A stretch of 39,824 nucleotides of DNA. Origin: a virus. The notes beneath the pieces are model-generated. The model had not been told where the DNA came from, made no database searches, and worked only from the letters and a program-made list of their open reading frames with translations. The position numbers and the translations under genes are program-made. How positions within the stretch are numbered: position 1 is the stretch's first letter; the number at the start of each line of letters is the position of its first letter. The stretch lies in IMG/VR virus record IMGVR_UViG_3300046000_010979, positions 1 through 39,824 of that record. One strand, 5' to 3'. Positions 5,936 to 35,068 of the stretch are shown piece by piece.

Positions 5936-6005
5936 AAGAAGTCAGTGATCAGAAATCAGAAGTCAGTCAACCAACCGACCGCCAACCGCCAACTGCCAAC
6001 CGTAT
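5936..6005. repeat. Heptamer repeat spacer between terL and next gene
   Basis: Directly after the terL stop there are degenerate TCAG-containing heptamers (AGTCAGTGATCAGAAATCAG and so on, about 5940-5974), then CCAACCG-type heptamers (about 5975-6000) leading into a C-rich leader before ATG 6015. It is the same kind of spacer seen at other gene boundaries in this genome. Confidence 0.75.
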
Positions 6006-6014
6006 TTCCCCACC

Positions 6015-6218
6015 ATGCCCCCGCCCACCAAACTTCTGACCCGTTCCGCCGCGCTGGCATTCCTTGCGGACTATGGTATCAAGCCGACGACTTTTGATAA
6101 GTGGCGTGTAACCCAGGACCTCCGCCCCGTCCGCCTGCCCGGCCACCGCTGGGAGCACTACCGGCCTGCCGACCTCCACCGGCTGGCCAACCCACCCAAC
6201 CCCACCAACACGCCCTGA
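6015..6218 (+). CDS. Small winged-helix (excisionase/MerR-like) protein
   Basis: 67 residues. The pattern LLTRSAALAFLADYGIKPTT, then FDKWR, a basic wing (PVRLPGHRWEHY) and a closing helix RPADLHRLA match the small winged-helix fold of excisionases and of lambda Nu1-type small terminases. It sits between terL and portal, 1 base from the portal start, so a packaging role (small terminase) is possible, although small terminases usually precede terL. A regulatory role is the alternative. Confidence 0.65.
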   Translation: MPPPTKLLTRSAALAFLADYGIKPTTFDKWRVTQDLRPVRLPGHRWEHYRPADLHRLANPPNPTNTP

Positions 6219-6219
6219 C

Positions 6220-8466
6220 ATGAAAGACGATACCCTGACCCACCTCGACCCCCGCGCCACGCCCAACCCCGCGCACCTGATCGATCAGGTGGAACACGCC
6301 CTGCTCACGGCCAACACCCTCGGATTCTTTGATAGGATGCAGTCCGCGCATGAGACGCGGGACTGCCTGTGGGCTAACAAATCCCGCGACGGCCGCAAGC
6401 AGGAATCCGAGGACCACAAGACCCCGGCCTTCCCGTGGGACGGGGCGCCGGACACGGAGAGCCGACTGGTGGACGAGACCATCAATGAATTCACCGACCT
6501 CAGCATGGTGGCGCAGAGCCTGGCCAATTTCCAACTGTCCCCCCGCAGCCTGACGGCGCCGGATGACACCGGCCGCACCGCGGCGATGTGGAAGCAGGTC
6601 CATGCCTACTACCTCGAGCAATTCCTGCCGGAGCAGGAAGACCAGGCGGGGCAGTTCATCGACACCGCCATGGAGCTGGGGCATAGCATCATGCGGGTTT
6701 CCTGGCATGAGACCAAGACCCTGCAGAAACGGACCATCGGGGTGGAGCAGGTCATGCAGATGTTCCTCGAGGCCGCCACGCTGGAAGTGATGGCGCAGCT
6801 GGCGCCCGGGGAGATGGTGAATCCACAGACCGGCCAGCCAGAGATGACCCCGGAGCTGCAGGCCATGCTGGCGCAGGAGACCGCCAAGCGGACCCGCTCC
6901 ATGCTGGACGACCCCGCCAACCGCGGGCAACTCAAGGAGGCGGTGCTGGCGATGGATCCTGACATGACCCCGGAGGAAGCCACCCGCGTGGCCACCAGCC
7001 TGCAACGCGGCAAGCCAGCCCTGTACTACGCCACCGTCATTGACGAGGCCCGCCCGACCTGGCGCGCGCTGAAACCCTGGGTCCATGTGTGGTATCCGCC
7101 GGAAACGGAGGACATCACCGCCGCCCCGTGGGTGTGTGAGGCGCTGTGGATGGATGAGGTGACGATGCGCACCATGGCCGAGAGCGAGGGATGGGATGCG
7201 GAATGGGTGGAGCAGGTGCTGCGCCGCCCCGGCCGCAGCATGACCGGCGGCGTGCAGCTGCCGCACTGGGTGATGGGGACGCTGGATGTGGGGATCGGCG
7301 TGAAGGACGACATCATTGACGGCAGCAGCGACACCAAAATGTTCCAAGTGACCATCATGCACTACCGGGCGATCAGCAAAGCCGGGGTGCCGGTGCTGTA
7401 CCGCACCATCCTGCATGGCGCCATCAAGGACAGCTACGGCCTGCACGAGTGCTGCCCATGGGCGCACGGGAAGATGCCCTACGTGCAGCTGAAGCTGCAG
7501 CGGAAGGGCACCCTGCTCAGCTGCCGCGGCATCGCCGAGATCGGCACCGCGCCGCAGCTGGAGATCAAGCTGCAGCGGGACTGCCGCGGCGCCCAAGTGC
7601 AGCTGCGAGCCGCGCCTCCCCTGCAGGAGCCGTGCAACCAGCTGGCCGGCACCACCGCGGTGCGGCCCGGGGAGCGCCTGCCGCTGAAGCGCGCCGGCGT
7701 GGCGGGGGAGTTCCGGTTTCTCGATATCCCGGCCATCGGCAGCGAGTCTGTGGAGATGGAAAACACCACGGTGCAGCGGTGGAACGAGTTCTGGGGGCGC
7801 GGGAATACGGTGGACCCTGACATCCGCCGGGTCCGCCGCCAGGCCATGGTGGATCGGGTGCTCACCGCCATGGCGGAGGTGCATCGCCTGACGTTCAAGC
7901 TGATTCAGGAATTCACCGACGACATCGAGGCCAGCACCATCGCCGGGAAGCCGGTGCAGCTGAGCATCACCCGGGAGGAGATCCAAGGGCAGTTCAACCT
8001 CTCGCTGAAATACGACGTCTCCGACCTCGACCTGGAATACACCGGCAAGGTGATCCAGTTCATCAGTTCCATGCTGGTGCCGCTGGATGTGAATGGAATC
8101 ATCGACCGGAATGAGCTAGTGGCCTTCGCGGCGCGGAAGTTCTCCCCTGACCTGGCCGACCGCATCGTGCGCAATGCCGCGGATGTGCAGCTGAGCGAGA
8201 TCGAGGATGAGCAGGGCGCCATCGCCAAGATGGCCGCCGGCGTGGAGCCGCCATTTAAGGAAGGCAAGAACGCCGCGCTGCGCGCGCAGGTGCTGCGGGA
8301 GAGCGTGGAGAAATCCCCGCGCCTCGCCCAGATGCTGCAGGAAGACCCTGACGTTATGGGGGCAATTTATGAAAACCGGCTGAAGCAATACGACTTCGCG
8401 GTGGAGCAGCAGCAGAACGCGCAGATCGGCCGGGTGGGCGGCAAGCCGTTGCTCGAAACCCCCTAA
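6220..8466 (+). CDS. Portal protein
   Basis: 748 residues. Forms the dodecameric ring through which DNA enters and leaves the head. The order and content fit large podovirus portals: an N-terminal acidic part with TPAFPWDGAPDTESRLVDE (about 68-86), a wing region containing ATVIDEARPTWRALKPWVHV (about 271-290) followed by YPPETEDI, and a long helical C-terminus with a glutamine-rich barrel-like end (EQQQNAQIGRVGG). A large helical insert with glutamate and proline (about 185-265) is present. It directly follows the small winged-helix gene and precedes the scaffold and capsid genes by about 2 kb. Confidence 0.9.
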   Translation: MKDDTLTHLDPRATPNPAHLIDQVEHALLTANTLGFFDRMQSAHETRDCLWANKSRDGRKQESEDHKTPAFPWDGAPDTESRLVDETINEFTDLSMVAQSLANFQLSPRSLTAPDDTGRTAAMWKQVHAYYLEQFLPEQEDQAGQFIDTAMELGHSIMRVSWHETKTLQKRTIGVEQVMQMFLEAATLEVMAQLAPGEMVNPQTGQPEMTPELQAMLAQETAKRTRSMLDDPANRGQLKEAVLAMDPDMTPEEATRVATSLQRGKPALYYATVIDEARPTWRALKPWVHVWYPPETEDITAAPWVCEALWMDEVTMRTMAESEGWDAEWVEQVLRRPGRSMTGGVQLPHWVMGTLDVGIGVKDDIIDGSSDTKMFQVTIMHYRAISKAGVPVLYRTILHGAIKDSYGLHECCPWAHGKMPYVQLKLQRKGTLLSCRGIAEIGTAPQLEIKLQRDCRGAQVQLRAAPPLQEPCNQLAGTTAVRPGERLPLKRAGVAGEFRFLDIPAIGSESVEMENTTVQRWNEFWGRGNTVDPDIRRVRRQAMVDRVLTAMAEVHRLTFKLIQEFTDDIEASTIAGKPVQLSITREEIQGQFNLSLKYDVSDLDLEYTGKVIQFISSMLVPLDVNGIIDRNELVAFAARKFSPDLADRIVRNAADVQLSEIEDEQGAIAKMAAGVEPPFKEGKNAALRAQVLRESVEKSPRLAQMLQEDPDVMGAIYENRLKQYDFAVEQQQNAQIGRVGGKPLLETP

Positions 8467-8480
8467 ACCATTGCCAAAGC

Positions 8481-8588
8481 GGTCAGGAGGCAGAGGTCAG
8501 AAGTCAGTCCCAAACCACTGCTCCGATTCTCTGCCTTCCGGCCGCTACCCTCTGACCACTGACATCTAACCTCTGACCTCTTCCCCCT
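8481..8588. repeat. Intergenic heptamer element, copy A
   Basis: This spacer after the portal stop starts with GGTCAGA-type heptamers and ends with their reverse complement (CTGACCACTGACATC, CTCTGACCTCTT) just before ATG 8589, so it can fold back on itself. Bases 8481-8533 match 15143-15195 at 48 of 53 positions without gaps. Confidence 0.8.
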
Positions 8589-8849: not shown

Positions 8850-8863
8850 AACCACATCATACC

Positions 8864-9151
8864 GTGAGCGAAACCCCAAGAACTAACGAACGTGAGGCAA
8901 GGTCCAAAGGGCTGCATGACGCATGGGCCTTCTCCCTCTGCCGACAACTCGAGCGCGAACTTAACGAGGCCACGGAGCGCCTCACCCGCGACGAATACCG
9001 CATGATGGCCGGCGAACTGATCGCCGCCATCCGGATAAATAGCCTGCGGGGAACCTTCGCCGCCAGCACCCACGCCGAGATCGAGGAATGGCTCAAACCA
9101 TGGGTCGCCCGGCTAGCCCAGCCCGTCGCCCCTCTCAACCCTCAACTCTAA
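8864..9151 (+). CDS. Small coiled-coil-like phage protein (ETPRT family type)
   Basis: 95 residues from a GTG start (MSETPRTNEREARSK). The N-terminal SETPRT motif followed by RQLERELNEATERL is a recurrent signature of small phage proteins of unknown role. The last residues (APLNPQL) and the stop codon are encoded by the CTCAACC heptamer array, so the repeat has supplied or replaced the natural C-terminus. The GTG start is chosen because it gives the expected N-terminal motif. Confidence 0.65.
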   Translation: MSETPRTNEREARSKGLHDAWAFSLCRQLERELNEATERLTRDEYRMMAGELIAAIRINSLRGTFAASTHAEIEEWLKPWVARLAQPVAPLNPQL

Positions 9152-9168
9152 ACTCTCAACCTCCCCCC
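9129..9168. repeat. CTCAACC/CTCAACT heptamer array and C-rich leader
   Basis: Four tandem heptamers (CTCAACC, CTCAACT, CTAAACT, CTCAACC) followed by CTCCCCCC and the primase ATG at 9169. The first half is still inside the previous coding region and includes its stop codon. The same heptamers recur in frame at 25682-25711. Confidence 0.8.
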
Positions 9169-10266
9169 ATGGACCTGATCCAACTCACCGCCGAGGCCAA
9201 GGAGCGGCTGACGATTCCCGATATCTGGCGGCGCCTCGCCCTGCCGGGGGAGCCGCGGGACCATGGGGTTTGCAAATCTCCGTTCCGGGAGGACCGGAGC
9301 GGGGCCAGCTTTAGCATCTTCAAGGCGGGCCGGATGTTCAAGGACCATGCGGAAGGGGACGCGCAGCAGGGGGACGCGGTGTGCTTCCTAGAGCTGGCGA
9401 CCGGCTGCGACCGGGCACAGGCCATGCGCACGCTGGTGGAGATGGCGGGCCTCGGCGGTCAGCTGGCGCACCGGGGGGAGGGGCGCAGCGCCGTGGTGCC
9501 GGTGAAGGTGGAGCCGCGGCCGGCGCTGCCAGACCGGGGGACCGGCTGGGGATTCCGCCGCCTGCCGGAACTGCCGGAGGTGCTGCCGGTGACGGTGGAG
9601 CGCATCGAGGCGCTGGCCAGTCAGCGTGGGCTGGCGCCGTGGGCGGTGCTGGCGGCCACGGAGCAGGGCCTGCTGTCCTTTGTCAGGAAATGGGGCAGGG
9701 ACTGTTGGATGGTGGCAGACGCCACCGCCTGCAATGCACAGGTGCGCCGGCTGGATGGCGAGCCGTGGCAGGTGAATGGCCAATCGCTGAAGGGCCTGAC
9801 CTTGCCGGACAGCTGGGCGGCGTGGCCGCTGGGGTGTGCGGGAAAGCGGTCAGAAGTCAGCGGTCAGAAGTCAGACGGGGTGCTGCTGGTGGAGGGGGCG
9901 CCGGATTTACTGGCGGCGGTGCAGTGGCTGGAGGAGACGGGGCAGGCGGAGACCTACCTCCCGGTGGCCATGCTGGGGGCGGGGCAGCCGATCCAAGGGA
10001 GTGCGCTGTGCCATTTTGTGGGGCGGCAGGTGCGCATCATGGAACAGCGGGATCCGGCAAAAACCCGCCGGGATGGCACCACCTACTACCCCGGACAGGA
10101 TGCGGCGCGGAAGTGGCAGGACCAGCTGACCGGCGTGGCCGCCAGCTGCCGGATCCTGCACCTGCCGGAGGCGATGCCGGGGAAGGATCTCAATGACTAT
10201 CTGAAATGGGAGGGGCGGCAGGCGGGTGATCTCCCGTCAAAGTTGGCAGATGTTGGCGGAAGTTGA
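9169..10266 (+). CDS. DNA primase (TOPRIM), stand-alone
   Basis: 365 residues. Makes RNA primers for replication. The N-terminus has the primase-like pattern C35-KSPFREDRS with SFSIF and QQGDAVCFLE (66-75), but only His32, Cys35 and His60 could bind zinc, so the CHC2-type finger is degenerate. The TOPRIM core has VLLVEGAPDLLAAVQWL (238-254) with the catalytic Glu 242 and the later PGKDLNDYL motif near the C-terminus. Residues 226-236 are encoded by a heptamer repeat inserted in frame just before the TOPRIM motif. ATG 9169 is chosen because it follows the C-rich leader. It lies 6 kb from the helicase, among head genes. Confidence 0.87.
   Translation: MDLIQLTAEAKERLTIPDIWRRLALPGEPRDHGVCKSPFREDRSGASFSIFKAGRMFKDHAEGDAQQGDAVCFLELATGCDRAQAMRTLVEMAGLGGQLAHRGEGRSAVVPVKVEPRPALPDRGTGWGFRRLPELPEVLPVTVERIEALASQRGLAPWAVLAATEQGLLSFVRKWGRDCWMVADATACNAQVRRLDGEPWQVNGQSLKGLTLPDSWAAWPLGCAGKRSEVSGQKSDGVLLVEGAPDLLAAVQWLEETGQAETYLPVAMLGAGQPIQGSALCHFVGRQVRIMEQRDPAKTRRDGTTYYPGQDAARKWQDQLTGVAASCRILHLPEAMPGKDLNDYLKWEGRQAGDLPSKLADVGGS
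9845..9876. repeat. Heptamer repeat inserted in frame within the primase gene
   Basis: AAGCGGTCAGAAGTCAGCGG and the following CAGAAGTCAG are four tandem TCAG heptamers, identical in kind to the intergenic arrays (compare 19781-19810). They encode KRSEVSGQKSD, a polar linker between the primase N-domain and the TOPRIM strand. Confidence 0.85.
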
Positions 10267-10370
10267 CGGAAGTTGGCAGAGGTCAGAGAGGCGGGACCTA
10301 GACAGGATGCAGCCCGCATGGGAGAGGGCGGGCGCCGGGCATGGTGCCCGTGATCCTATCTGAATCTCTT
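10241..10370. other. Spacer with AGTTGGC heptamers and a hairpin before the scaffold gene
   Basis: The end of the primase gene and the start of the spacer carry AGTTGGC/AGTTGAC heptamers and one GGTCAGA unit (10241-10288). A perfect six-base stem CGGGCA/TGCCCG with a three-base loop sits at 10336-10350, 20 bases before ATG 10371. There is no T-run after it, so it is not a typical terminator; it could be a leader structure. Confidence 0.45.
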
Positions 10371-11539: not shown

Positions 11540-12580
11540 ATGCCCTCCCTCCTCGACCACCAAACCAGCCAGACCGCGACCGGCCTGCGCATCCGCGACG
11601 TCCGCAAATCCTTCATCCTGATCGATGCCGAGCACAACCCTGTCACCTCCATGGCGGCCAAGGGGGAAGCTCCTATCTCGTCCTTGATCGAGTGGCAGCT
11701 GCGCCGCGTGCCCACCAGCTCCTCCGTCGCCGGCATCATGGACGGCGCCGCCGTGCTCGATGCGGATCTGCAGAACTTTGAAGACCGGAAGACCATGCTG
11801 CAAGGCCGCACCATGAAGATCCGCGAGGCGATCGGCATTGGCGACATCGCCGAGACCAACGTCCAACAATACGCCATGGACGGCGCCAGCCTCTTTGCCG
11901 AGGCCACCAAATTCGCCCTGCAGCAACTGCGCAGCCGCATGGAAACAGTGACCGTGGGCACGCAGGACTCTGTGGCGCAGTCCGGCACCGTGGCCTCCAG
12001 TCCCGTGCCATTCGTCTCCCGCGGGCTTTCCCACTGGAAGGGCAAGGCCGCTTCCGGAGACTTGCCTATCACCGACAGCTGGGCCCGCACCCCGGCCGCC
12101 AGCATCTTCACCACCGCGCTGAACACGGACACGGAAACCGTGATCACGGAAGCCAACGTGCGCGCCGTCCTCCGCAGCATCTTCACCGTCACCAAGAAGC
12201 GGAGCCGGAACCTGATGCTGTTCTGCACCCTGGCTTTCCAGGAACAGTTCAACAACTTCTTGACCACCGGGGCCGTGAGCTCCACCACCGCGCCCCTCCG
12301 CCGGTTCTCCGGTGATGCCTCCACCAGCAATATCACACTGGATGTGCAGACCTACACCGGCCCCGGCGGGAACGTCACCTTGATCCCTCACCTCAGCCTG
12401 CCGGCCAAGGTCTTCGGGCTCCTCCTCGACATGGATTACGTGAAGCTGCGCATGGCCCGGAATGCCCGGTTCGTCCCCCTCACCGAGGACGGCAGCGGCC
12501 CACGTGGTTTTGCCGACGCCATCTTCGCGGTGGCCGACGAGAACCCCACCACCGGCGGGAAGTTCATCCAAGCCACCTAA
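11540..12580 (+). CDS. Major capsid protein
   Basis: 346 residues. The sequence fits an HK97-fold major capsid protein of the DUF5309 / SU10 type: an N-terminal arm (MPSLLDHQTSQTATG), an E-loop-like region with polar repeats, a helix-rich spine (FAEATKFALQQLRSRMETVT) and a strongly beta-stranded C-terminal part (ITLDVQTYTGPGGNVTLIPH, then VFGLLLDMDYVKLRMARNA). It follows the scaffold gene and precedes head-tail genes, the standard order. The family assignment is from pattern recognition and not from an alignment. Confidence 0.85.
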   Translation: MPSLLDHQTSQTATGLRIRDVRKSFILIDAEHNPVTSMAAKGEAPISSLIEWQLRRVPTSSSVAGIMDGAAVLDADLQNFEDRKTMLQGRTMKIREAIGIGDIAETNVQQYAMDGASLFAEATKFALQQLRSRMETVTVGTQDSVAQSGTVASSPVPFVSRGLSHWKGKAASGDLPITDSWARTPAASIFTTALNTDTETVITEANVRAVLRSIFTVTKKRSRNLMLFCTLAFQEQFNNFLTTGAVSSTTAPLRRFSGDASTSNITLDVQTYTGPGGNVTLIPHLSLPAKVFGLLLDMDYVKLRMARNARFVPLTEDGSGPRGFADAIFAVADENPTTGGKFIQAT

Positions 12581-12593: not shown

Positions 12594-13073
12594 ATGTTTG
12601 CAGTCACCTCTGGCGCGGCCTTGATGGAAGAGTCTGATGGACTCGATCTGACGGGCCGTGCCCAGAGAGTGACGGACGTGGGATACAGCGTGGACGACCA
12701 GATCCACGATGCCGTGCTGGGCATGAGCGACGAGCAGCAGTACCGCTTCCTGCAGTCCATCCAGCGGGAGGCGGACTGCCGGCGGGTGCTGGCGCACGCC
12801 CAGTCCCTCCGGATCGGAGAGGCCAATAGCCGTCTGGAATTCGCCGCCAGTGAAGAATTAGACGGCCTGCGCTTTGAAAGCTCCATGCCGCTGACGGTCT
12901 TCCATGACTGGTTTGCCAAAGGGGAGGCAGAGCTGGGAGGGAACCCCTGGATGGACGAGACCTTCCGCAAGGAATTCCTGCGCGACAACCCGCAGTGCGC
13001 GGTGAAGGAGACGAGCCAAAACATCGTGGTGACCAACGCCTGGGACTACTCCAACCGGAAGGAGGCGGCGTGA
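12594..13073 (+). CDS. Head-tail region protein, unknown function
   Basis: 159 residues, acidic, mostly helical (DEQQYRFLQSIQREADCRRV and similar). No recognised motif. It lies between the major capsid gene (13-base gap) and the tail adaptor, whose GTG start overlaps its stop (GTGA), so it is translationally coupled to a virion gene. It could be a head-completion or adaptor protein. ATG 12594 is used; reading further upstream would enter the capsid gene. Confidence 0.7.
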   Translation: MFAVTSGAALMEESDGLDLTGRAQRVTDVGYSVDDQIHDAVLGMSDEQQYRFLQSIQREADCRRVLAHAQSLRIGEANSRLEFAASEELDGLRFESSMPLTVFHDWFAKGEAELGGNPWMDETFRKEFLRDNPQCAVKETSQNIVVTNAWDYSNRKEAA

Positions 13074-14248
13074 GCAATACCCTGACCACCGCTCCGGTGC
13101 GCCCCTTCCAGCGGGTGCTGGAAAGCCTGGCCACCCGCATGGGGTGGGACCCGGCGCGCATCCAGGCCAACCAAAGCGCGGCCCTGACCGCCTATCTGAA
13201 CACCGCCATGCAGACGGTGTGGAATTTTTACGAGTGGCCGGAGATCATGCGGAGTGAGCTGCTGCCGGCCACCGGCGGGGTGATCCCGTGGCAGGCCGGT
13301 CGCGTCCCCACCGCGGAAGTGAGCAATAATGGCAACCTGCTGGTCAATCTGCTGGACTGGTCGCAGGGCGGCGCGCTCTTCACCTTTGCGGCGCCGGCTG
13401 GGGCGAACTTCAGCGTAAATGCCGCCAATGCGGTGGACGGGGGAGTAGGCTTCTACCAAACCGTGGAAGGACTGACCGCCGGAGCCACCTACCGGCTCAA
13501 GCTGGTGCTGGAAAACTGCGAGGTGGGCACCCGCGCCATCACCCTGTGGGCGGAGAATGATACGACCGAAATCTTCCGGGAAGACTACTACCAAGCCGAC
13601 TTCACCAATGGAGCCAAAACCGTGGAGGTGGACCTGCAAGCGGGCGCGGGCGGCGAGATCTGGATGCACCTGTCCGTCTATTCCCCCGGGGCCAACATTG
13701 TGACCGGCCGCATCTCTCAGTTTACCCTGCACGCCACGGCGCCGGGACCGACGATCGACATGGTGGCCGGCGTCTACACCACCAATCCCCTGACCACGGA
13801 CGAGCCGGTGCCCATGCCCTACCACCTCGGGCCCGGCTGTATTTACCTTACCGGCACCGCCCGGGATGCCACGGAGGCGTGGGTCTACTACCGGCCGGGG
13901 TGCCCCTCTTACACGGCCACGGCATACTCCGCCGCCACCACCTACCAGAACGGCGGGCTCAATGAGCTGGCCTTCAGCGGCAGCACCGGCCATGTCTACC
14001 GCGCGCAGTCATCGGTGCCCTTTACCAATATCCCGGTGACCAATCCGGCCTACTGGCTGGTGCAGGGCGTGCCGGAGCGGTTCGCCGAGGCGCTGGTGCA
14101 GCTGGCCCGCGCGGAGGCTCTGGAGGAGCAGGACCAATTCGCCAAAGGTCTGCGCGCCCGGGCCACCGGACTGGACTTCCTGGAGAACGCCATGCTGACC
14201 CACTACCGGCAGAGCGGCCAGACGCGGAACTACCGCCACGCTGCCTGA
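13070..14248 (+). CDS. Head-to-tail adaptor (tail tubular protein A-like) with inserted beta domain
   Basis: 392 residues, GTG start overlapping the previous stop. The N-terminal helices (RVLESLATRMGWDPARIQAN, TAYLNTAMQTVWNFYEWPEI) and the C-terminal helices (ALVQLARAEALEEQDQFAKG, then a long helix ending RNYRHAA) are typical of podovirus tail adaptors that join portal and nozzle. Between them, about residues 88-235 form a beta-rich domain with a carbohydrate-binding-module-like pattern (GLTAGATYRLKLVLENCEVG, IWMHLSVYSPGANIVTGRIS). Such an insert could stick out of the tail and bind host glycans. Function of the insert is inferred. Confidence 0.78.
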   Translation: MSNTLTTAPVRPFQRVLESLATRMGWDPARIQANQSAALTAYLNTAMQTVWNFYEWPEIMRSELLPATGGVIPWQAGRVPTAEVSNNGNLLVNLLDWSQGGALFTFAAPAGANFSVNAANAVDGGVGFYQTVEGLTAGATYRLKLVLENCEVGTRAITLWAENDTTEIFREDYYQADFTNGAKTVEVDLQAGAGGEIWMHLSVYSPGANIVTGRISQFTLHATAPGPTIDMVAGVYTTNPLTTDEPVPMPYHLGPGCIYLTGTARDATEAWVYYRPGCPSYTATAYSAATTYQNGGLNELAFSGSTGHVYRAQSSVPFTNIPVTNPAYWLVQGVPERFAEALVQLARAEALEEQDQFAKGLRARATGLDFLENAMLTHYRQSGQTRNYRHAA

Positions 14249-14944: not shown

Positions 14945-15183
14945 TGACCATGGACACCGACACCCTCCGCTGGCGGGACCACGGCTGGCTGATCCTCGCC
15001 GCCCTGCTGGCCCTCGCTGGGCTGGCCGGCCACGTGGCCACCCGCCCCGCCACCGTGCCGGATCCGACCCGCAGCCGATACCATGACGCCAGTCTGGATC
15101 TGCAGACCGCCCCGGTGACGACCACGCAGGAATATTACCAGAGGTCAGAAGGCAGAGATCAGAAGTCAGTCCCAGAGCACTGA
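14944..15183 (+). CDS. Small single-pass membrane protein, repeat-derived C-terminus
   Basis: 79 residues with one transmembrane segment (GWLILAALLALAGLAGHVA, about 14-32) and a polar periplasmic tail. It could be an inner-membrane spanin, but the tail is short and shows no coiled coil. The last 13 residues (RSEGRDQKSVPEH) are encoded by the GGTCAGA heptamer element copy B. ATG 14944 overlaps the preceding stop; ATG 14950 is an in-frame alternative. Confidence 0.6.
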   Translation: MTMDTDTLRWRDHGWLILAALLALAGLAGHVATRPATVPDPTRSRYHDASLDLQTAPVTTTQEYYQRSEGRDQKSVPEH

Positions 15184-15240
15184 TCCGATTCTCTGACCGC
15201 TGACCTCTGACCGCCGACATCCTCCCCCTGACCTCTTTCC
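15143..15240. repeat. Intergenic heptamer element, copy B
   Basis: Bases 15143-15195 match 8481-8533 at 48 of 53 positions. As in copy A, TCAG heptamers on one side face CTGACC heptamers on the other (15196-15234), followed by a C/T-rich leader before ATG 15262. Here the left half is inside the upstream reading frame. Confidence 0.8.
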
Positions 15241-15261
15241 CCCAACCCCTTCCCCAAACTT

Positions 15262-19771: not shown

Positions 19772-19780
19772 TGGGGGAAG

Positions 19781-19899
19781 CGGTCAGAAGTCAGAGGTCA
19801 GAAGTCAGATACCCATCCTTAACGCCAAGAATGAACAACCATACTACCCGCAGCAGCTGACCGCTGACCGCTGACATCTTTTCCCTTTCCCCAACCCTC
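19781..19899. repeat. Intergenic heptamer element, inverted arms
   Basis: GGTCAGAAGTCAGAGGTCAG (19782-19801) plus one more unit forms the left arm; GCTGACCGCTGACCGCTGAC (19856-19875) forms the right arm, followed by a C/T-rich leader (TTTTCCCTTTCCCCAACCCTC) before ATG 19900. The arms are reverse-complementary, so a hairpin in the mRNA between the two genes is possible. Confidence 0.8.
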
Positions 19900-22626: not shown

Positions 22627-22634
22627 ACCCCACG

Positions 22635-22673
22635 ACTGACCCCTGACCGCTAACCTCTGACCGCTTCCCCCAC
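22635..22673. repeat. CTGACC heptamer leader before the next gene
   Basis: CTGACCCCTGACCGCTAACC then TCTGACCGCTTCCCCCAC ends at ATG 22674. This is the right-arm type of the intergenic element, without a left arm. Confidence 0.75.
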
Positions 22674-26400: not shown

Positions 26401-29400
26401 GGATGTACCGCCGCAGCCCCGGCCTGTGGAACGACGCGCCAGACCGCCTCGCCGACCCCACCCACAACGTAATCTACGGCACCACCCGGCCCGACGAAAT
26501 GGCCGAGGCCGCAGTGCGCGCCGGCCTGCTACCGCAAGGCAGCACCCAGCGGGAACTCTGGGAAGCGCTGGGCAATGAGAGCAGCGCCGCCCGCAGCATC
26601 GCCCGCGCCCAGCGGCAGGTGGAAACCGACATGGCCAACCTGGAGCGGATGGCCCGCCGGGAGGACCTGGACTTTACCCTGGCCCTGCGCGCCAAGAGCC
26701 GCCGCGACGAGCAACGCCAAGCCTCCCGGCAGACCGCCCCGCCAGTGAGCATGGCAGAGCCCCTGCCAGACCCCACCGACGATCCGGACTACGTGCCCTT
26801 CGCCCGGCCCAGTGCGCCGGCCATGCAGTTTGCCCGGGCGGGGCAGGCACCGGCACCGGCGCAGCCTTCGCCGGCCCATACGGCGCTCACCAGAAATCTG
26901 ACGGAGGACGGGTACGGCGTGACCGTGGACACCGATCCGCTGGAGGGGGGCAAGGTGCGGTCCATCGCCAAGCTCTTCCACCGGCTGCACAACGCGGCCC
27001 AGCGGATCGACTGGGCGGCCAACTGGCGCGGGAGTAAGAAGGAATTCTCCCCGGGACAGGAGGCCAAGTATCTGCGCGATGTGGCGCGGGCGGGCCAACG
27101 CACACTGGAGGTGCTGCGGGTAGCCCATGAGATGTTCCCGAAATTCCAAAGCTGGTATGAGACGCGCATCAAAATGGCGTTGGATATCTTTGAGGAACTG
27201 GACCCACAGGCGGCCAAGCCGGAGAACAACTTTGTGCTGCGGGTGCTGCTGGCCGTGACCTCCAACGGGAACAAAGTGAAGGAGCAGACGGAGGACACGT
27301 GGAAGGTGTACCAAGCATGGAAGACCACCGGAAAGCTGGCCGGCACCAAAGTGCGCGGCACCCGGGACGGGGCGATCAATAACACGCTGCAGCGGATGGA
27401 CGACATCATCGCCGTCTTTGGCTGGGCCAAGGTGGACGAACTGCTGGCCAAGAGTGGCACGGTGAAAGAACTGCGCGCGGAGCTGGTCCAGTCCTTTGGG
27501 TTTACCCAAGAGGAGGCCGTCGACATCACAGATGGCGAACTGATCGACGAGGTGGTGCCGTTTGCCCTGATTTTCGGGGCCAAGCTGGGGTCCTTCTATA
27601 ACAATCTGTCAGGGAATTTTGACACCACCACGATGGACCGGTGGTTCATGCGGACCTTTGGCCGGGCCATGGGGATGCAGCTCAAGGTGGTGGATAAGGC
27701 GGATGTGGCCAAGAAGCGCGCCCGCCTGACCAAGGCGCTGGCCGCCGCCAGCCAGGATGCGGGATCCCTCAAGGTACTAAAGGCAGCCGGGGTGCGCGGC
27801 ACCGCGCCCGCCAGCCAGAAAACCACCGTGGCCCTGGCGAAATACTTTGAGAAGAAAGCCAACCGGGAAGGGCTGAACAAGATCAGCGACGAGCTGCGCA
27901 AGGCCACCAATGACCTCTACAAGGTGGAGGATGGATTCTCCTTGATGGAGGCGCCGGAGAGCGGTGGGCACCGGCGGTTCATTCGGCTTGCAATGGAGCA
28001 GGCGCGCGTCGAATTTTCTGCAGAGACAGGCAAGCAGTGGAACGCGGCAGAACTGCAGGCGCTGCTGTGGTATTTTGAAAAATCAGTCCACGAACTTTAT
28101 GGATCAAAACAACAAGACGCCAATCCAGACTACGGAAGCGCCGCCAACGACCTCTACCGAGGACTACGAGGTGCGGACTCTGGAGCCTTTAGACCCTCAG
28201 ATGCCGTCAACGGAAGAAACATCAAGGGACAAGGCATGGGCATCATGGCAGGCCCGAATGGCCGGCCGGATAGCCCAGCAGGCCCAGCCAACCCAGCCGG
28301 AGTAAACCCGGCCCGGCCCGCGCCGGCGCCGGTGACCCGCGGCGTGTCCCCCAAGGCCGCGGAGCAGGCGCTGTCCCTGATCCGGCAATCCCTGCCGGCG
28401 GTGGCTGATGCCACCCGGATCGTGACCAACCGCGAGGCGCTGGCAGATGAGATCGGCGACTACCGGCCGCAGGACTGGGCGGACATGGGACCCGGCGGAG
28501 TGCAGGCATTCTACGATCCGCGCACCGGACAGACCACCATCTTCCTGGAGAACATCGAGGTGCGGGAGGGCGAGACGCCCATGCGCGCCGTGGCCCGCAT
28601 CATCCTGCACGAGCGGATCGCCCACGCCGGGCTGGCGGTGCTGCGGGAGAGCGACCCGGCCTTCGCCCGCCAGTGGCAACAGCTGACCGGCCAGATCCCG
28701 CAGGACCAGCTGCAGGCCATCGCCGAGCGCTACCCGGAACTGAGCGGCAACCTCGACGCCCTCGCCGAGGAATGGCTGGCCAGCCAAGTGGAAGCCCGCG
28801 CCGGGCAACTGCTCCCGTCCAACTCCCTCGCCGGGAAGATGTGGGCCGCGCTGAAGGCCGCCCTCGCCCGAGTGTTCGGCAAATTCAGCCGCAGCCAACC
28901 GCTGGACGCGGAGGTGGACCGCATGATTTACATCGCGCGGAATGCCCTAAAGACCCAGTTCGTCCCGCCCGGCCCCGGGCCGACGCTTGAGGCCATGGCC
29001 CGGCTGCATTTCCTGCGCGCCTACCACGGGACGCCGTATGAGGTGGACAAATTTATGCTGCAATATATCGGCACCGGCGAGGGAGCGCAGGCATTCGGAT
29101 GGGGCCTCTACTTTGCGGAGAACCAATCTACGGCGGAAGACTACCGCCGCAAATTGAGCAACGGTGAATATGTTCCCTTTGCCTCCATCAAGGAATATTT
29201 CAAACCGGGGAATATTGTGAACGGTTATAGCGGGTCAGACCGGGTGATTAGCTTCATGGAAGGAGATGACAAGATCCCCTGGAGCGTGACCGTTGAACGG
29301 GTAGTGCAAAGGAATGGAGAATGGGTGGCTACCGACCGACCTCGCCAACACGCAACGACTCCCAGTGTCAGAAATGTGAAAGCAGCCGGACTCAAAACAG

Positions 29401-32400
29401 AGGTCGATGGCAACCTCTACACGGTGGAAATCCTGCCGGATGAATCTGATTTTCTGGACTGGGACAAGCCGCTCAGTGAGCAGAGTGAAAAGGTAAAACA
29501 GGCGGTGCGAGCGGCGACAATCAGCATATGGAAAAATGACGTAGGCGCAGTTCAGGGAAGCCTAATATACGAGGCGTTGGGATTGGATTTGAACGGGGGC
29601 CGAGATGGATCTGCAGCTGCCCGGAAAGCCAGCGAGGCACTGCTCAAGCAAGGCATCCCCGGAATTAAATACCTAGATGGACCAAGCCGCCGTAGGGGCT
29701 CAGGCACCAGCAACTTTGTCATCTTCGACGAGGATCTGGTAAAGATACTGGAAGTGAACGGAGAAGTGAAGATGGCCCGGCCGCGCATGAACTTCGCCCG
29801 CCCCGGGCAGCGCAGCACCGTGCGCTACGCCGGCACCGGACCCTACCGGGTGCAGAACCAAGGATGGCGCGCCACCCTGACCGGCAACGCCCTGCCCAAG
29901 GAATTCACCGGCCTGCTCAACCAAGGGAAGAACGAGACCGCCGCCCTGCAGCAGGCCGCCGCCCTGATCGGGCAGGACCTGAACGTGGCCATAGCCACCC
30001 ACGCCAAGACCCATGGCCTGACGGAAGTGGATGTGCTGACCCTGGTGGACGACGCCATGGCCAACCCCACCACCCTCTACGCCATGCAGGACCGCGCCCT
30101 GCGCGAGGCCACCCGGAAGGCGCGGAACTTCCTCGACGACATGAGCGAGGCCGTGGCCACCATCACCGGCGGCCAACTGGGCAGCGCCATCATGGCGAAC
30201 CGCGGGAACTGGATGCGGCGCAGCTACGCCGCCTTTGACCCCGCCGCGGGGTGGAACTACGATGCGGTGGAGAAAGCCGCCAAGGCCAACCAATCCATCG
30301 CCGGGCAGCCCGCGGCCAAGATCCTGCAGGACGCGCGGGACTTCCTGCTGACAGAGGATCCGGCCCGCACCCCGGGGCAGATCGAGGCCATCCTGCGCAG
30401 CCTGATGGACCGCACCAACTGGGAGCGAGCCCTCACCGGCCAAGGCGTCAGCAAACCCACCGAAAGCCTGATGCGCCGCAAGGAACTGCCGGCCGCCCTG
30501 CGCGCGGTGATGGGGGAGGAACGGAACCCACTGAAACGCTATACCCTCAGCGCGGGATTCCAGGCCGCCTTCATCGCCCGGCACGAGCAGCAGGAACGCA
30601 TGGCCCAGATCGGCCTGCAGATGGGGATCTTTTCCACCGCCCGGGAAGGGGTGTACACGGAAGAGATCAGCGACGGCGCCCCCACCGCCCAAGGCCAACG
30701 CCGCAGCGGACTAGCCGGACTCTACACCACCCCGGAGATGAAGGCCGCCCTCTCCCGGGCCCAAGGCACCACCCCGGATAACCTGATCTACAAGGCCGGG
30801 GACCTCATCAAATTCCTCAGCGGCGAGGCGAAGCTGAACAAGGTGGCGCTGAGCCCTGACAGCTACATGGTGAACCTGATCGGCAACGTGATCGGACTGG
30901 TGCAGACGGGGGATCTGTTCACCCTGAGCGCCTTTGGCCGGATGGCCGAGGCCATCAAGGTGATGAACAGCGGCCGGCCGCTCGCCGCCCTGGGCACGGC
31001 CCAAGCGGTGCTGCAGGAGACGCGGCGCGCCCACCTCGCCCGCATCACCGCGGCGGGCGTGGCCGACAGCAGCTACTCCATGGCGGACCTGCAAAGCAGC
31101 CTGGATAACAAGCTGCTGCAATTCATCGAGGCGGACAACCTGTGGAACCGCGCCAGCGGCGGAGTGCGCGGCGCCGTGCTGGGGCAGGGGCTGGGCCGGA
31201 TCTTCGGAGGCACCGGCCGGGCCATCGGCGCGGTGACCGGAGCCGCCGTGGGCACTGCCCTCGGAGGGAAACGCATCGTGGATGCGCAGAAACAAATCGC
31301 CCAGTGGACCCTCGGCGCGCCCGACCGCTTCGGGAAGATCCTCGCCTTCCAGAATAACTACGCGGCGCACCTCGCCAGCGGCATGAGCGACCAAGCGGCC
31401 TTTGACCTGGCCACAGAAAAGACGTTAGATACAATGCCGGACTACAGCAAGCTGCCGGAGCTATTCAAGCAGCTCAGCCAGCTGGGTGTGATGGGCAGCT
31501 TCATCGGATTTCAAGTCGAAGTCTACCGGAATGCCTACCACAACTTCCGCTACGCCGCCAAAGAGCTGGCCAGTGGCAAGCCTGCCTTGATGGCCCTCGG
31601 CGCCCGCCGCTTGATCGGCGCCAGCACGGTGCAGGCCCTCGCCCTCGGTGGGTTCCAGGCCATCATCGCCGGGATCTTCGGGCAGGGCGCCAGCGATGAC
31701 GAGGACGAAGCGTACCGGCGGAGCCTCGCCAAACCTTACGAGAAATTTGGCAGGCTGGCCTACACCGCGCTGGATGGCGAGAAGGCCGCCTACTTCAACA
31801 CCAGCTACCTGCTGCCGCAGGTGACGATGTGGGAGATCACCCGCGCCGCCTTCTCCGGAGATAGCTTCGAGACCGCCATCGAGAACGCCCTCGTCGCCGG
31901 AAAGAATCAAATCGCCGGCGGCGGGGTCCATACCGACCCACTACTCGAGGCCCTGATGAACGCCCGCAAGGACGGCCGCCCCGTGAGCACCGAGACCGGC
32001 TACCGCCAAGGCGCCGAGCGGATCGTCTACTACCTGCGCCGCGCCCTCGAGCCCGGCGCCATCGACAAGCTGGACCGCACCGCGCGCGCCATGGACGGCC
32101 GGGACCGGAACAGCCGCACCTTCACCCTGGAAGAAGAGGGCCTGCGCCTCCTCGGCGTGCGCCAGACGACCTACAAACACACCGAGACCATCAAGAGCCG
32201 CCTGTACGAGCTGGACGGCGCCTACACCGCCGCCGCCGCCACCGCGCGCACCAGCTGGAAGGACAACGCCCCGGGCGAGCGTGCCGCAGCCATCACCCGG
32301 GCCAACACCCGCATCGCCAACATCCGCGCCGACTACGAGCAATTCACCCGGGACCTGAGCACCCTGCGCCTGCTGCCCCTCCTCCAAACGGTGAACGATA

Positions 32401-32498
32401 ACCGCAGCGCCGACGGCACCCGCCGCCCGATTCTCCCCAAGGAATTCAAACCACTGGTCGATACCCCAGACGGACCCAAGCCAATGAGCAGCAAATAA
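23433..32498 (+). CDS. Giant polyvalent virion protein (3021 aa) with metallopeptidase-like and ADP-ribosyltransferase-like domains
   Basis: 3021 residues, 23% of the genome. Order: helical N-terminal part with hydrophobic stretches near 365-385 and 535-550; Pro/Asp linker (555-765) including a heptamer-encoded LSTLNPQLS (751-759); an unnamed domain (about 1150-1560) with GNFDTTTMDRWFMRTFGR (1394-1411); a zincin-like domain with ILHERIAHAGL (His 1726, Glu 1727, His 1731; HExxxH type of phage polyvalent proteins); an ART-PolyVal-like domain (1860-2110) with AYHGTPYEV, GTGEGAQAFGWGLYFAE; then an 890-residue helical C-terminal part with SPDSYMVNLIGNVIGL and Gly-rich hydrophobic segments (near 2596 and 2733), like large polyvalent-associated domains. 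It is probably carried in the head and ejected; enzymatic targets are unknown. Confidence 0.85.
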   Translation: MVTLNDVLGYGNETDPATGQPRANAQQQAEAVKLWHKDTVDYGRAATADPKNPLSADSFWQGTLAVDDEVTETLDTLRSAAMYNTSQNLFQDPEELASFWRVWESSGKDPENMDAPERWIENARAMDQIGQAAAFQAPRYQSGQIGVGPNILGHYLIREKEDGTGYQSFVQSAFPTNQQIKQADGTTKTVEALPPPITVDLPSLEAMRQQANERLAEADRKVALHDQFNDTSGGGFMGEGNVDFLGPRLYGQAAAAKSRADLLNGKDLATALHVGLDNNLTSNDAFLDQLPGGVAAWAEQFSTRPLAQVARGLAQTTAGFLESGSALTQEGQDAVDIVTPGALANRYENSLEGNAPIADLITSGIESSITVLLPGGLAKLGGRAMLSTKVGRAGAMANTMDAGVGAAAPGFLSGRATTAAVAENAGYGTMFATAVGQSYAATAQEADAVEATDPAKAARLRRWNGLTSLAKGAIEMGTEKIFPGETALLRGQRMSLGSLAMMPFQEAVEEGIGALGQNAISLTTGQTMEDPVEAARGGFFGAAPFVAAAALAGRFSPQPAAPADDTAPPADPGPGPDASLFPPANANPPDFSEAQPPSLLTGIAQRGGRVDPTIQDSSVVQVPTRGRSTAYGYANDETPDRNSSDGIGAWVSTAEAARIRAGLPSELRLRPGDLAVSRDIEAQFREQGIRPGDPVTLNYADGTTHTGRWMDRTDGSLDGRFDLYSPDGPPANDGSRITGFTPGGTPGASPLSTLNPQLSPPPIPSTPEELEDGSPNLHPDGVTPDEVLAFQEAQDNYRAANPETATQPEPLRTLAAQLDLVRQGSKPSMIFEGVTRDQLPATMRPIAGRDSTIDGVQTPGGYVVFNKAAIRPLVGLRAADPYTSVQAAARTAFQNPATAGQLLGYGTASKPANPTSGLVARAEDGTEIVAVVNDDNDPATTGQIETAINRAVAPRRALSVSAAAFRGSPLAEFVIQSGGIMSRSTARQSGMYRRSPGLWNDAPDRLADPTHNVIYGTTRPDEMAEAAVRAGLLPQGSTQRELWEALGNESSAARSIARAQRQVETDMANLERMARREDLDFTLALRAKSRRDEQRQASRQTAPPVSMAEPLPDPTDDPDYVPFARPSAPAMQFARAGQAPAPAQPSPAHTALTRNLTEDGYGVTVDTDPLEGGKVRSIAKLFHRLHNAAQRIDWAANWRGSKKEFSPGQEAKYLRDVARAGQRTLEVLRVAHEMFPKFQSWYETRIKMALDIFEELDPQAAKPENNFVLRVLLAVTSNGNKVKEQTEDTWKVYQAWKTTGKLAGTKVRGTRDGAINNTLQRMDDIIAVFGWAKVDELLAKSGTVKELRAELVQSFGFTQEEAVDITDGELIDEVVPFALIFGAKLGSFYNNLSGNFDTTTMDRWFMRTFGRAMGMQLKVVDKADVAKKRARLTKALAAASQDAGSLKVLKAAGVRGTAPASQKTTVALAKYFEKKANREGLNKISDELRKATNDLYKVEDGFSLMEAPESGGHRRFIRLAMEQARVEFSAETGKQWNAAELQALLWYFEKSVHELYGSKQQDANPDYGSAANDLYRGLRGADSGAFRPSDAVNGRNIKGQGMGIMAGPNGRPDSPAGPANPAGVNPARPAPAPVTRGVSPKAAEQALSLIRQSLPAVADATRIVTNREALADEIGDYRPQDWADMGPGGVQAFYDPRTGQTTIFLENIEVREGETPMRAVARIILHERIAHAGLAVLRESDPAFARQWQQLTGQIPQDQLQAIAERYPELSGNLDALAEEWLASQVEARAGQLLPSNSLAGKMWAALKAALARVFGKFSRSQPLDAEVDRMIYIARNALKTQFVPPGPGPTLEAMARLHFLRAYHGTPYEVDKFMLQYIGTGEGAQAFGWGLYFAENQSTAEDYRRKLSNGEYVPFASIKEYFKPGNIVNGYSGSDRVISFMEGDDKIPWSVTVERVVQRNGEWVATDRPRQHATTPSVRNVKAAGLKTEVDGNLYTVEILPDESDFLDWDKPLSEQSEKVKQAVRAATISIWKNDVGAVQGSLIYEALGLDLNGGRDGSAAARKASEALLKQGIPGIKYLDGPSRRRGSGTSNFVIFDEDLVKILEVNGEVKMARPRMNFARPGQRSTVRYAGTGPYRVQNQGWRATLTGNALPKEFTGLLNQGKNETAALQQAAALIGQDLNVAIATHAKTHGLTEVDVLTLVDDAMANPTTLYAMQDRALREATRKARNFLDDMSEAVATITGGQLGSAIMANRGNWMRRSYAAFDPAAGWNYDAVEKAAKANQSIAGQPAAKILQDARDFLLTEDPARTPGQIEAILRSLMDRTNWERALTGQGVSKPTESLMRRKELPAALRAVMGEERNPLKRYTLSAGFQAAFIARHEQQERMAQIGLQMGIFSTAREGVYTEEISDGAPTAQGQRRSGLAGLYTTPEMKAALSRAQGTTPDNLIYKAGDLIKFLSGEAKLNKVALSPDSYMVNLIGNVIGLVQTGDLFTLSAFGRMAEAIKVMNSGRPLAALGTAQAVLQETRRAHLARITAAGVADSSYSMADLQSSLDNKLLQFIEADNLWNRASGGVRGAVLGQGLGRIFGGTGRAIGAVTGAAVGTALGGKRIVDAQKQIAQWTLGAPDRFGKILAFQNNYAAHLASGMSDQAAFDLATEKTLDTMPDYSKLPELFKQLSQLGVMGSFIGFQVEVYRNAYHNFRYAAKELASGKPALMALGARRLIGASTVQALALGGFQAIIAGIFGQGASDDEDEAYRRSLAKPYEKFGRLAYTALDGEKAAYFNTSYLLPQVTMWEITRAAFSGDSFETAIENALVAGKNQIAGGGVHTDPLLEALMNARKDGRPVSTETGYRQGAERIVYYLRRALEPGAIDKLDRTARAMDGRDRNSRTFTLEEEGLRLLGVRQTTYKHTETIKSRLYELDGAYTAAAATARTSWKDNAPGERAAAITRANTRIANIRADYEQFTRDLSTLRLLPLLQTVNDNRSADGTRRPILPKEFKPLVDTPDGPKPMSSK
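25682..25711. repeat. CTCAACC/CTCAACT heptamers in frame within the giant gene
   Basis: CTCTCAACTCTCAACCCTCA followed by ACTCTCACCC: four tandem heptamers of the type seen before the primase gene at 9129-9162. They encode LSTLNPQLS in a linker and keep the frame open. Confidence 0.8.
28099..28305 (+). CDS. Candidate overprinted ORF inside the giant gene
   Basis: 68 residues in the +1 frame relative to the giant gene: starts MDQNNKTPIQTTEAPPTTST and ends AGRIAQQAQPTQPE. In this stretch the nested frame has roughly two-thirds G or C in third positions, while the giant frame has only about half, unlike its usual strong GC3. The peptide is hydrophilic with a balanced composition. This could be a real overprinted gene or a product of unusual base composition in a spacer. 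No family recognised. Confidence 0.25.
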   Translation: MDQNNKTPIQTTEAPPTTSTEDYEVRTLEPLDPQMPSTEETSRDKAWASWQARMAGRIAQQAQPTQPE

Positions 32499-32671: not shown

Positions 32672-32752
32672 GTGCCTGATTTACAGGGGGTTATGAGGAA
32701 GGTGGGGGATTTTGACGGGATTTTGAGCCGGGGGGACGATAGTTGATAATAG

Positions 32753-32782
32753 TTGACAATAGCCGAGCGGCTGGGATACAAT
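32753..32782 (+). promoter_or_regulatory. Sigma70-like promoter for integrase
   Basis: TTGACA at 32753-32758 and TACAAT at 32777-32782 with an 18-base spacer; a second TACAAT follows at 32789-32794. Each TACAAT is part of a direct repeat GGGATACAAT (32773 and 32785), so a protein binding the repeat, possibly the integrase itself, could control the promoter. The integrase ATG is at 32808. Confidence 0.65.
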
Positions 32783-32807
32783 ATGGGATACAATCCTATA
32801 ACATCTT

Positions 32808-34148: not shown

Positions 34149-34162
34149 GCGCCGGTCGGAGG

Positions 34163-34501
34163 TCAGGGGGTGGAGAGGATGTGCTGGAGGTAGGCGCGGC
34201 CGGCGGGGGTGAGGGTGAGGACGAGATTCCGCCGGATGAGGCCGCTGGGGGTGATGAGGTGCTGCGCTACGCTGGTGATGAGATCGGACTGGGCGAGGAC
34301 GCCGGCGCTGTAGAGGCTGGCTGGCTTTGGAATACCGGCGCGCTCCCGGATGCGGGCGAGGGATTTGCCTTTGGGCTCTTCGGCTAGGGACAGGAGGATG
34401 GCGAGGGCGTCCTGGGTGAGGCCGAGGCTGTTCCCAGGGCCGCGGAGGCAGCGGAGGGTGCGCAGGATGAGGTGAGGAGAGGCTGGGGACTCAGGGGGCA
34501 T
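34163..34501 (-). CDS. Small winged-helix (MarR-like) protein
   Basis: 112 residues. Helices LTQDALAILLSLAEEPKGKS and LARIRERAGIPKPASLYS, then RRNLVLTLTPAGRAYLQHIL, form a winged-helix pattern in which the LTPAGRAYL end is typical of MarR/PadR-like regulators. It is the last gene of a leftward operon, starting 4 bases after the tiny membrane gene. A longer upstream reading frame exists but starts inside that gene. It converges with integrase with 14 bases between stops. Confidence 0.7.
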   Translation of the reverse strand: MPPESPASPHLILRTLRCLRGPGNSLGLTQDALAILLSLAEEPKGKSLARIRERAGIPKPASLYSAGVLAQSDLITSVAQHLITPSGLIRRNLVLTLTPAGRAYLQHILSTP

Positions 34502-34505
34502 TTTG

Positions 34506-34598
34506 TTATGGGGCGAAGACGAGGAAGGAGCAGAGGAGGAAGATGACGGCGGCCACGCTGAGGACAAGACCGTGGAGGAGGATGGTGAAGTATTTCAT
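34506..34598 (-). CDS. Tiny membrane protein (30 aa)
   Basis: 30 residues: MKYFTILLHGLVLSVAAVIF then LLCSFLVFAP, essentially one transmembrane helix. It starts directly after the leader CTGACCGCTTCCCC and ends 4 bases before the next leftward start, so its placement is that of a real gene. Function unknown. Confidence 0.6.
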   Translation of the reverse strand: MKYFTILLHGLVLSVAAVIFLLCSFLVFAP

Positions 34599-34605
34599 GG
34601 GGAAG

Positions 34606-34690
34606 CGGTCAGGGGGCAGTGGTCAGAGGTCAGAGGTCAGAGGTCAGAGGTCAGAGGTCAGAGGTCAGAGGTCAGAGGTCAGAGGTCAGG
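34606..34690. repeat. Perfect (GGTCAGA)9 heptamer array
   Basis: Nine perfect tandem GGTCAGA units (34621-34683), then GGTCAGG, preceded by related units (GGTCAGGGGGCAGT). Read on the minus strand it is (TCTGACC)n. It contains the stop codon of the upstream leftward gene and ends in the C-rich leader of the tiny membrane gene. Confidence 0.95.
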
Positions 34691-34910
34691 CTTCGGGCGG
34701 AGTGGCGATCGGGAAGAAGAGTCCGCGGGTGGTGCCGCGGAGCTGCTGGCGGCGGATCTGCCGGGCCTCGAGGAGGGCGCCGAGGTGCGGGAGGATGGTG
34801 GATTCCGCCAAGCCGGTGTGGATGGCAATATCTCCGAGGGTGAGGCCGCCGGGGGCGTCAATGATGGCCTGAGTGATGGCGGCGCGGCCGGCTTTTGCGA
34901 TGGGGCTCAT
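34686..34910 (-). CDS. Small winged-helix DNA-binding protein
   Basis: 74 residues: GLTLGDIAIHTGLAESTILP, HLGALLEARQIRRQQ and a beta-wing (GTTRGLFFPI), the form of ArsR/MarR-type winged helices. Its start overlaps the stop of the upstream 41-residue gene (ATGA), and its stop lies in the first heptamer of the array. A longer frame to 34967 exists but the coupled start at 34910 is preferred. Confidence 0.7.
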   Translation of the reverse strand: MSPIAKAGRAAITQAIIDAPGGLTLGDIAIHTGLAESTILPHLGALLEARQIRRQQLRGTTRGLFFPIATPPEA

Positions 34911-35032
34911 GGGGTGCGGTGATGCGTGATGGTTGAAGGCGTGGCGGGTGCGGTGAGGGCGCGCCACGCGGCGTGGAGCCGGGTGGTGAGGCGGGCCGCC
35001 GGCGGGAGGGCGGGCAGGGTGGGGTGATTCAT
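34907..35032 (-). CDS. Tiny basic protein (41 aa)
   Basis: 41 residues, rich in Pro, Ala, Arg and His (MNHPTLPALPPAARLTTRLH ...). No motif. Support is positional: it starts right after CTGACCGCTTCCCC and its stop overlaps the next start in ATGA. Confidence 0.5.
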   Translation of the reverse strand: MNHPTLPALPPAARLTTRLHAAWRALTAPATPSTITHHRTP

Positions 35033-35068
35033 GGGGAAGCGGTCAGGGGTCAGAGGTTAGCGGTCAGA
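35033..35068. repeat. Heptamer spacer containing a stop codon and leader
   Basis: On the minus strand: CTCTGACCGCTAACCTCTGA then CCCCTGACCGCTTCCCC directly before ATG 35032. The stop codon of the upstream leftward gene is the TGA of the first heptamer. Confidence 0.85.

Follow-up and report, generated by a model that had tools for sequence, protein, structure and literature searches.

Degenerate heptamer arrays in the spacers of a phage genome as probable copies of a spreading repeat with its own palindromic polarity

The 39,824-bp IMG/VR virus record IMGVR_UViG_3300046000_010979 (referred to here, at its full length, as the window) carries arrays of degenerate 7-base units between its genes, and the question raised by these arrays is whether they serve the genes they adjoin or are merely carried along. 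A sequence-only reading had described spacers in which TCAG-type units follow a stop codon while CTGACC- or CTCAACC-type units run through CTTCCCC into an ATG, and had put forward two possibilities, a function in translation or in the processing of mRNA, and a repeat that spreads but is tolerated in spacers alone. The analysis reported here favours spread: the arrays are probably copies of a short degenerate-heptamer repeat that spreads, is largely tolerated, and has an intrinsic palindromic polarity.

A lag-7 scan of the window detected 11 arrays, against a mean of 0.1 (maximum 2) in 100 dinucleotide shuffles. Control lags of 5, 6 and 8-13 gave 0-3 arrays each, and more than three were found only at lag 14, a harmonic. 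Likewise, the search for CTGA/CTAA units at period 7 returned 11 arrays (0.08 in shuffles), with 0-1 at other periods and 2 at the harmonic 14. They cluster in the non-coding sequence, 7.6% of a window whose GC (guanine plus cytosine) content is 65%. Although a C-rich spacer might imitate a repeat, in the face of these counts a chance or low-complexity artefact can hardly be entertained. The forward units are of the types CTGACCN, CTAACCN, CTCAACN and CCAACNG, with the variants CTGACC[G/T/A], CTGAC[AT]T, CTAACCT, CTCAACY and CCAACNG. The full paired form consists of a GGGGAAG-type end, NGGTCAG units, a loop of 10-80 bp, CTGACCN units and a CTTCCCC-type end, and half copies are common. Four spacers (5936, 8467, 15138 and 19772) hold a TCAG-type arm together with a forward arm, four (9129, 22627 and, on the minus strand, 34599 and 35033) a forward arm alone, and three further arrays (9838, 10236 and 25673) lie within or overrun the ends of open reading frames (ORFs). 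The period of 7 described earlier was recovered, at the coordinates given, at 5936, 8467, 9129, 15138, 19772, 22635, 34599(-) and 35033(-), as was the passage of CTGA units and a C-rich tail into an ATG on the coding strand at eight sites, the minus strand included; the spacer at 10241 is mainly period-10 and does not show this passage. The arrays at 9838-9877 and 25673-25715 and reverse units at approximately 34155-34170 had been overlooked.

The two arms occur in a near-invariant order. All 32 arm pairs no more than 150 bp apart in the fetched loci, some of which overlap, ran TCAG..CTGA, never CTGA..TCAG, and mirror-image patterns in viral contigs gave six sites of TCAG..loop..CTGA and none of the opposite. 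In 20 Verrucomicrobiota genomes the corresponding numbers of pattern matches were 106 and 7 (overlapping matches counted), the seven being close to the background of a reversed control pattern; by inspection, the distinct sites amounted to at least 45 versus 3 among the matches listed. A strict paired pattern gave no match of either polarity in 388 genomes, but it required both arms to be CTGACC and is hence uninformative. As a TCAG..loop..CTGA pair looks the same from both strands, the arrangement of TCAG after the stop and CTGA before the start is automatic at paired sites, and orientation there comes with the repeat and not from the gene. The argument from orientation to a role in translation or mRNA processing was rejected as it stood, since paired elements are symmetric and their ends adjoin stops too. 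Against the model of a MITE-like element, in which inverted repeats terminate in conserved ends, the arms showed a fixed inverted polarity and variable ends, with TCCCC at most 18 nt outside the arm in 19 of 79 arms and on the inner side in 2 of 79. At L113:12841-12916 (genome G002) an AT-richer CTCAAAT/CTTAAAT flavour runs directly into CCC-ATG, which suggests that the C-rich end is common to several heptamer flavours.

Whole elements have been copied. Those at 8467-8588 and 15138-15244 are homologous in both arms and in the loop, with 80% identity across 111 bp. In L042, a phage contig by its head-protease and terminase matches, two junctions share 130 bp at 96% identity while their flanks differ. 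Presence and absence also vary between relatives: genome G549 (~73% identity to G005) lacks an element present in G005, its spacer at that place being ~80 bp shorter. The flanks of this pair are too diverged to place the junctions of the missing element, and those of a second empty-site comparison (G004 with G558) are likewise too diverged. The loop core was also tried as a tracer and discarded; its one viral match, in L076, is a chance match in a contig without arrays. An origin without movement, in which each array grew in place as the polymerase slipped by 7 bases, beginning at a stop-start junction (e.g. CTGACC-ATG), would fit the single CTGA units present at several start sites of the window. 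It would also fit a report in which heptanucleotides are the most frequent of the long simple repeats and are attributed to slippage (Mrazek 2007, cited in PMC4679880); with these repeats the arrays, so far as that citation describes them, share the 7-bp unit and a slippage-type variation in length. However, growth in place leaves unexplained the homologous loops at two junctions, the inverted pairs of fixed polarity and the shared C-rich cap, and simple slippage, as it is cited there, does not extend to degenerate units, inverted pairing or copied loops. We therefore regard it as quite unlikely.

The same repeats are found in bacteria and in other phages. An exact-pattern scan with one genome per species gave 36 loci, many inside heptamer arrays and some being single chance matches, in Verrucomicrobiota, Planctomycetota, Cyanobacteria, Omnitrophota, Hydrogenedentota and others; the TCAG..CTGA polarity was seen in Verrucomicrobiota, cyanobacterial and planctomycete loci and in phages. 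In Verrucomicrobiota the third variable base is genome-specific, G003 having mostly CTGACCG, G004 and G005 CTGACCA and G006 CTGACCT. Period-7 CTGA arrays numbered 26 in G003, 25 in G005 and 13 in G004 (all sampled by a CTGACC pattern), against 0-1 at other periods, and ~400 kb stretches from G370 and G002 (mostly whole contig runs) contained 10 and 3. In contig L041, a phage by its tape-measure protein, some spacers follow the stop-element-start layout seen in the window. Two IMG/VR contigs, L247 and L249, hold 19 lag-7 arrays in 10 kb and 13 in 14 kb, respectively, lags 6 and 8 giving 0-2. A literature search for the exact repeat strings returned unrelated papers only.

Relatives of the window phage itself are distant. 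The search for close phage relatives gave one viral contig at 24% identity and one phage record at 25%, no relatives of the scaffold-like gene were found in IMG/VR, and prophage relatives in the Verrucomicrobiota sample stand at 24-32% protein identity. The best integrase match (33% over part of the protein) leaves the host undecided. Prophages with the gene order TerL-portal-scaffold-MCP (major capsid protein) are mostly without arrays. The exception is the G221 prophage, in which the corresponding TerL-portal spacer contains GAACNTN heptamers, as does the gap between two separated TerL matches; this flavour is present elsewhere in the G221 genome. At L223:12680-12920 of this prophage the TerL matches are split by ~200 bp of short repeats (CACGGATTACACGGAT, heptamers and ATTAGG hexamers), possibly a split terminase gene.

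Some observations on the position of the arrays relative to gene starts favour a function. All eight forward arms of the window lead into an ATG on the coding strand via a C-rich tail (TTCCCC/TCCCCC), the arm lying at most ~50 nt and the tail mostly no more than 6 nt from the ATG. Forward units of the CTGA/CTAA type contain TGA or TAA, and three of them place stops in all frames. A CTGA array with its C-rich tail might be a translation element, that is, an unstructured, stop-rich leader that shields the start against ribosomes arriving from upstream, with a pyrimidine-rich site (e.g. for ribosomal protein S1) in place of a Shine-Dalgarno sequence. A comparable positional bias has been reported for the TAACTGA (= CTGATAA) heptamer direct repeats of marine Beggiatoaceae, some Cyanobacteria and Bacteroidetes, whose forward copies stand directly upstream of starts without Shine-Dalgarno (MacGregor 2015, PMC4679880). 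In bacteria, the gene context was assessed for 56 intergenic arms from six genomes, with genes called by a simple script. Unpaired arms no more than 25 bp upstream of a start were of the CTGA type in nine cases and of the TCAG type in one (4/4 CTGA in the window). This bias may be due in part to gene calling, since a TCAG array, being stop-free, is apt to be called as part of the ORF whose start it precedes.

Several observations nevertheless speak against a translation element. The outward arm ends of Verrucomicrobiota elements lie at a median of 5 bp from stops (15 of 16 within 25 bp) versus 56 bp from starts, and elements are also located between convergent genes. In same-direction spacers the outward neighbour is a start in 15 cases and a stop in 8, which is no significant preference (p=0.21). 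Almost every start in the window phage is without Shine-Dalgarno, array or none. In phage L042 a purine-rich Shine-Dalgarno-like tract stands between each array and its start, as does GAGGAG between array and ATG at L041:8205, and there the array is thus no replacement for such a tract. Finally, the C-rich cap is present also on arm ends that face stops, and the distant relatives do without arrays. In combination, these observations make a translation element unlikely, and a start-linked role for the arrays is conceivable but not required by the evidence.

A further possibility is that paired elements act as RNA hairpins in mRNA processing, stabilisation or bidirectional termination. The stop-to-start hairpins proposed earlier do beat shuffled sequences in three spacers (z -3.8 at 8481, -4.0 at 15143 and -4.7 at 19781), and the palindrome reads alike on both strands. 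Conversely, the paired spacer at 5936 shows no such advantage (z +0.3), the four forward-only arrays lack a second arm to pair with, and those at 9129 (z +1.25), 22635 (z +1.3) and 35033 (z +0.7) are unstructured; the stretch 34595-34695 folds weakly at -9.2 kcal/mol, though with z -4.5. When arms were swapped between Verrucomicrobiota loci, the resulting duplexes matched the true pairs in stability (p = 0.13, 1.0, 0.93 and 0.50), and arm pairing is therefore not visibly maintained by selection. Rfam curated models gave no match at the gathering threshold. An intrinsic-terminator-like scan remained at background level, none of its sites being one of the three strong hairpins. With the arm-swap test negative, a hairpin function was rejected as very unlikely.

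The individual elements of the window, on the plus strand unless stated otherwise, are as follows. The window encodes a DnaB helicase, a major head protein and an integrase, the last of which makes the phage probably temperate, and has ORFs resembling terminase- and portal-like genes of distant prophages. The element at 5936-6014, recognised by sequence, runs from the stop of the terminase-like gene (5933) to an ATG at 6015 and comprises the reverse arm AGTCAGTGATCAGAAATCAGAAGTCAG, CCAACCG/CCAACTG units and TTTCCCC, with a lag-7 array at 5971-6005. The element at 8467-8588 (sequence, lag-7 and fold) joins the stop of the portal-like ORF (8466) to an ATG at 8589 through a GGTCAG arm, a loop, a CTGACC/CTAACC arm and CTTCCCC. 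The same three lines of evidence define the paired elements at 15138-15261, ahead of an ATG at 15262, and at 19772-19899, between a gene end at 19771 and an ATG at 19900 and with the ends GGGGGAAG...CTTTTCCC. At 15138 the upstream ORF runs on through the TCAG arm, and its stop (15183) sits in the loop. The claim that TCAG units follow the stop accordingly holds only at 5936, 8481, 19781 and, with this read-through, 15143, but not at 9129, 34606 and 35033, which have no TCAG arm and where the upstream stop lies inside the array; with 15143, these are the sites at which the upstream ORF ends within the array.

The forward-only arrays were all recognised by sequence and lag-7. That at 9129-9168, a CTCAACY array with CTCCCCCC, precedes an ATG at 9169 and contains the TAA (9149-9151) of the upstream ORF 8864-9151. 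The array at 22627-22673 reads CTGACCC/CTGACCG/CTAACCT/CTGACCG-CTTCCCC between a stop at 22626 and an ATG at 22674. On the minus strand, 34599-34689 comprises ~11 mostly CTGACCT units followed by CTTCCCC at an ATG at 34598, the upstream gene ending in the first unit (34686), and 35033-35069 reads CTGACCG/CTAACCT/CTGACCC/CTGACCG-CTTCCCC at an ATG at 35032 and includes the upstream stop (35064).

Among the arrays associated with coding sequence, the reverse arm GGGAAAGCGGTCAGAAGTCAGCGGTCAGAAGTCAG at 9838-9877 (sequence and lag-7) lies inside the toprim-primase-like ORF 9169-10266, where it is translated as KRSEVSGQKS directly ahead of the Toprim match (residue 240); primase homologues, sought to test this array as an insertion, were not found. 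Across the end of the same ORF (10266), the stretch 10236-10290 combines the period-10 repeat GTTGGCNGAA with GGTCAGAG and lacks a forward arm (sequence). A CTCAACY array at 25673-25715 (lag-7) is situated inside the 3021-amino-acid ORF 23433-32498, which takes up a quarter of the record and has one stretch 22% identical to a Phage C75C1 protein. The two reverse units GGTCGGAGGTCAGGGG near 34155-34170 (sequence; coordinates approximate) lie past the integrase stop (34148), between convergent genes. A simple repeat distinct from the heptamers, ~20 head-to-tail CTCAC pentamers, occupies non-coding sequence at 36117-36222 near a lysogeny-type region.

The cyanobacterial short tandemly repeated repetitive (STRR) sequences, degenerate heptanucleotide arrays in spacers, had been named as a loose parallel, and aptly so. 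They share the period of 7, but their unit sequences differ and the window is a phage with distant relatives among Verrucomicrobiota prophages, so that the present arrays are not counted as STRR members. The TAACTGA repeat is the closer published precedent, and the present repeat is related to it in kind (PMC4679880). Common to both are CTGA-containing heptamers in tandem, an intergenic location, reverse copies inside ORFs, forward-direction stops in all frames and a patchy occurrence across phyla. The units of the window are, however, not TAACTGA itself but the heptamers listed above, and the forward-before-start trait, seen at all eight window arms, is not significant in Verrucomicrobiota same-direction spacers. 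The TAACTGA repeats are mostly exact direct repeats with one inverted case, in BOGUAY (PMC4679880). Unlike these, the present units are degenerate in their last three bases, are paired in inverted orientation with a fixed polarity and carry a C-rich cap; occurrence in phages and fixed polarity are new. The REP (repetitive extragenic palindromic)/GTAG palindromes and REPINs are also short, palindromic and intergenic, can supply the stops of flanking ORFs and are known in the PVC (Planctomycetes-Verrucomicrobia-Chlamydiae) superphylum (PMC3733652, PMC3116915). The present elements share the palindromic, intergenic nature and the ability to provide stop codons, but have no GTAG/CGTC tag, end in GGGGAAG/CTTCCCC-type sequences and have arms made of heptamers. 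Other spacers of L041 are filled with different short palindromes; at L041:9581-9647, 12351-12401 and 13050-13100 and at L042:4932-5145 several of these start with GTAG (e.g. GTAGGGGCAGGTTCTAAACCTGCCC), recalling GTAG-type REPs.

For a spreading, largely tolerated repeat, the following course may be envisaged. Repeats of this type, each genome having its own flavour, are dispersed in Verrucomicrobiota and other bacteria, and the phage probably shares or acquired them. Each copy would arrive at a new junction as a unit, through recombination or template switching at the heptamer arms or through a transposition-like step, after which arm length would drift through 7-base slippage. They would persist where they are least harmful, and spacers would tolerate them. 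The earlier proposal of tolerance in spacers only has to be widened, since arrays also occur inside ORFs, in the stop-free direction; being stop-free, the TCAG direction can be tolerated there. The CTGA strand has TGA/TAA in all three frames and thus often supplies the stop at which the gene upstream ends, and the position close to the ATG would follow from an element filling short spacers in a phage whose starts are generally without Shine-Dalgarno. Several points weigh against this account. Neither a transposase nor a target-site duplication nor a precise junction was found, and the relatives are too diverged (~73% in DNA at best, 24-32% in phage protein) to define insertion boundaries. Plain neutrality does not fully predict that every forward arm of the window reaches an ATG, and it falls short of the 9:1 excess of single CTGA arms near bacterial starts. 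Moreover, gene calls in the other genomes came from the simple script, and G003-G005 were sampled by the CTGACC pattern.

A broader reading, conceivable though doubtful, would place the elements in a cross-phylum class of miniature mobile palindromes with outward CTGANNN arms and a CTTCCCC cap, whose movement inside and among the genomes of bacteria and phages would follow an undescribed mechanism, with the strict polarity as the signature of that mechanism. Bacterial heptamers have until now been viewed as direct repeats of uncertain origin, with slippage, horizontal transfer and regulation as guesses. The near-invariant inverted polarity, the copied loops and the invasion of several phages constrain how such repeats arise and travel, and caution that a heptamer positioned before an ATG is no proof of a translation signal. 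Phages, with their short spacers and fast turnover, would be convenient places to watch heptamer repeats move.

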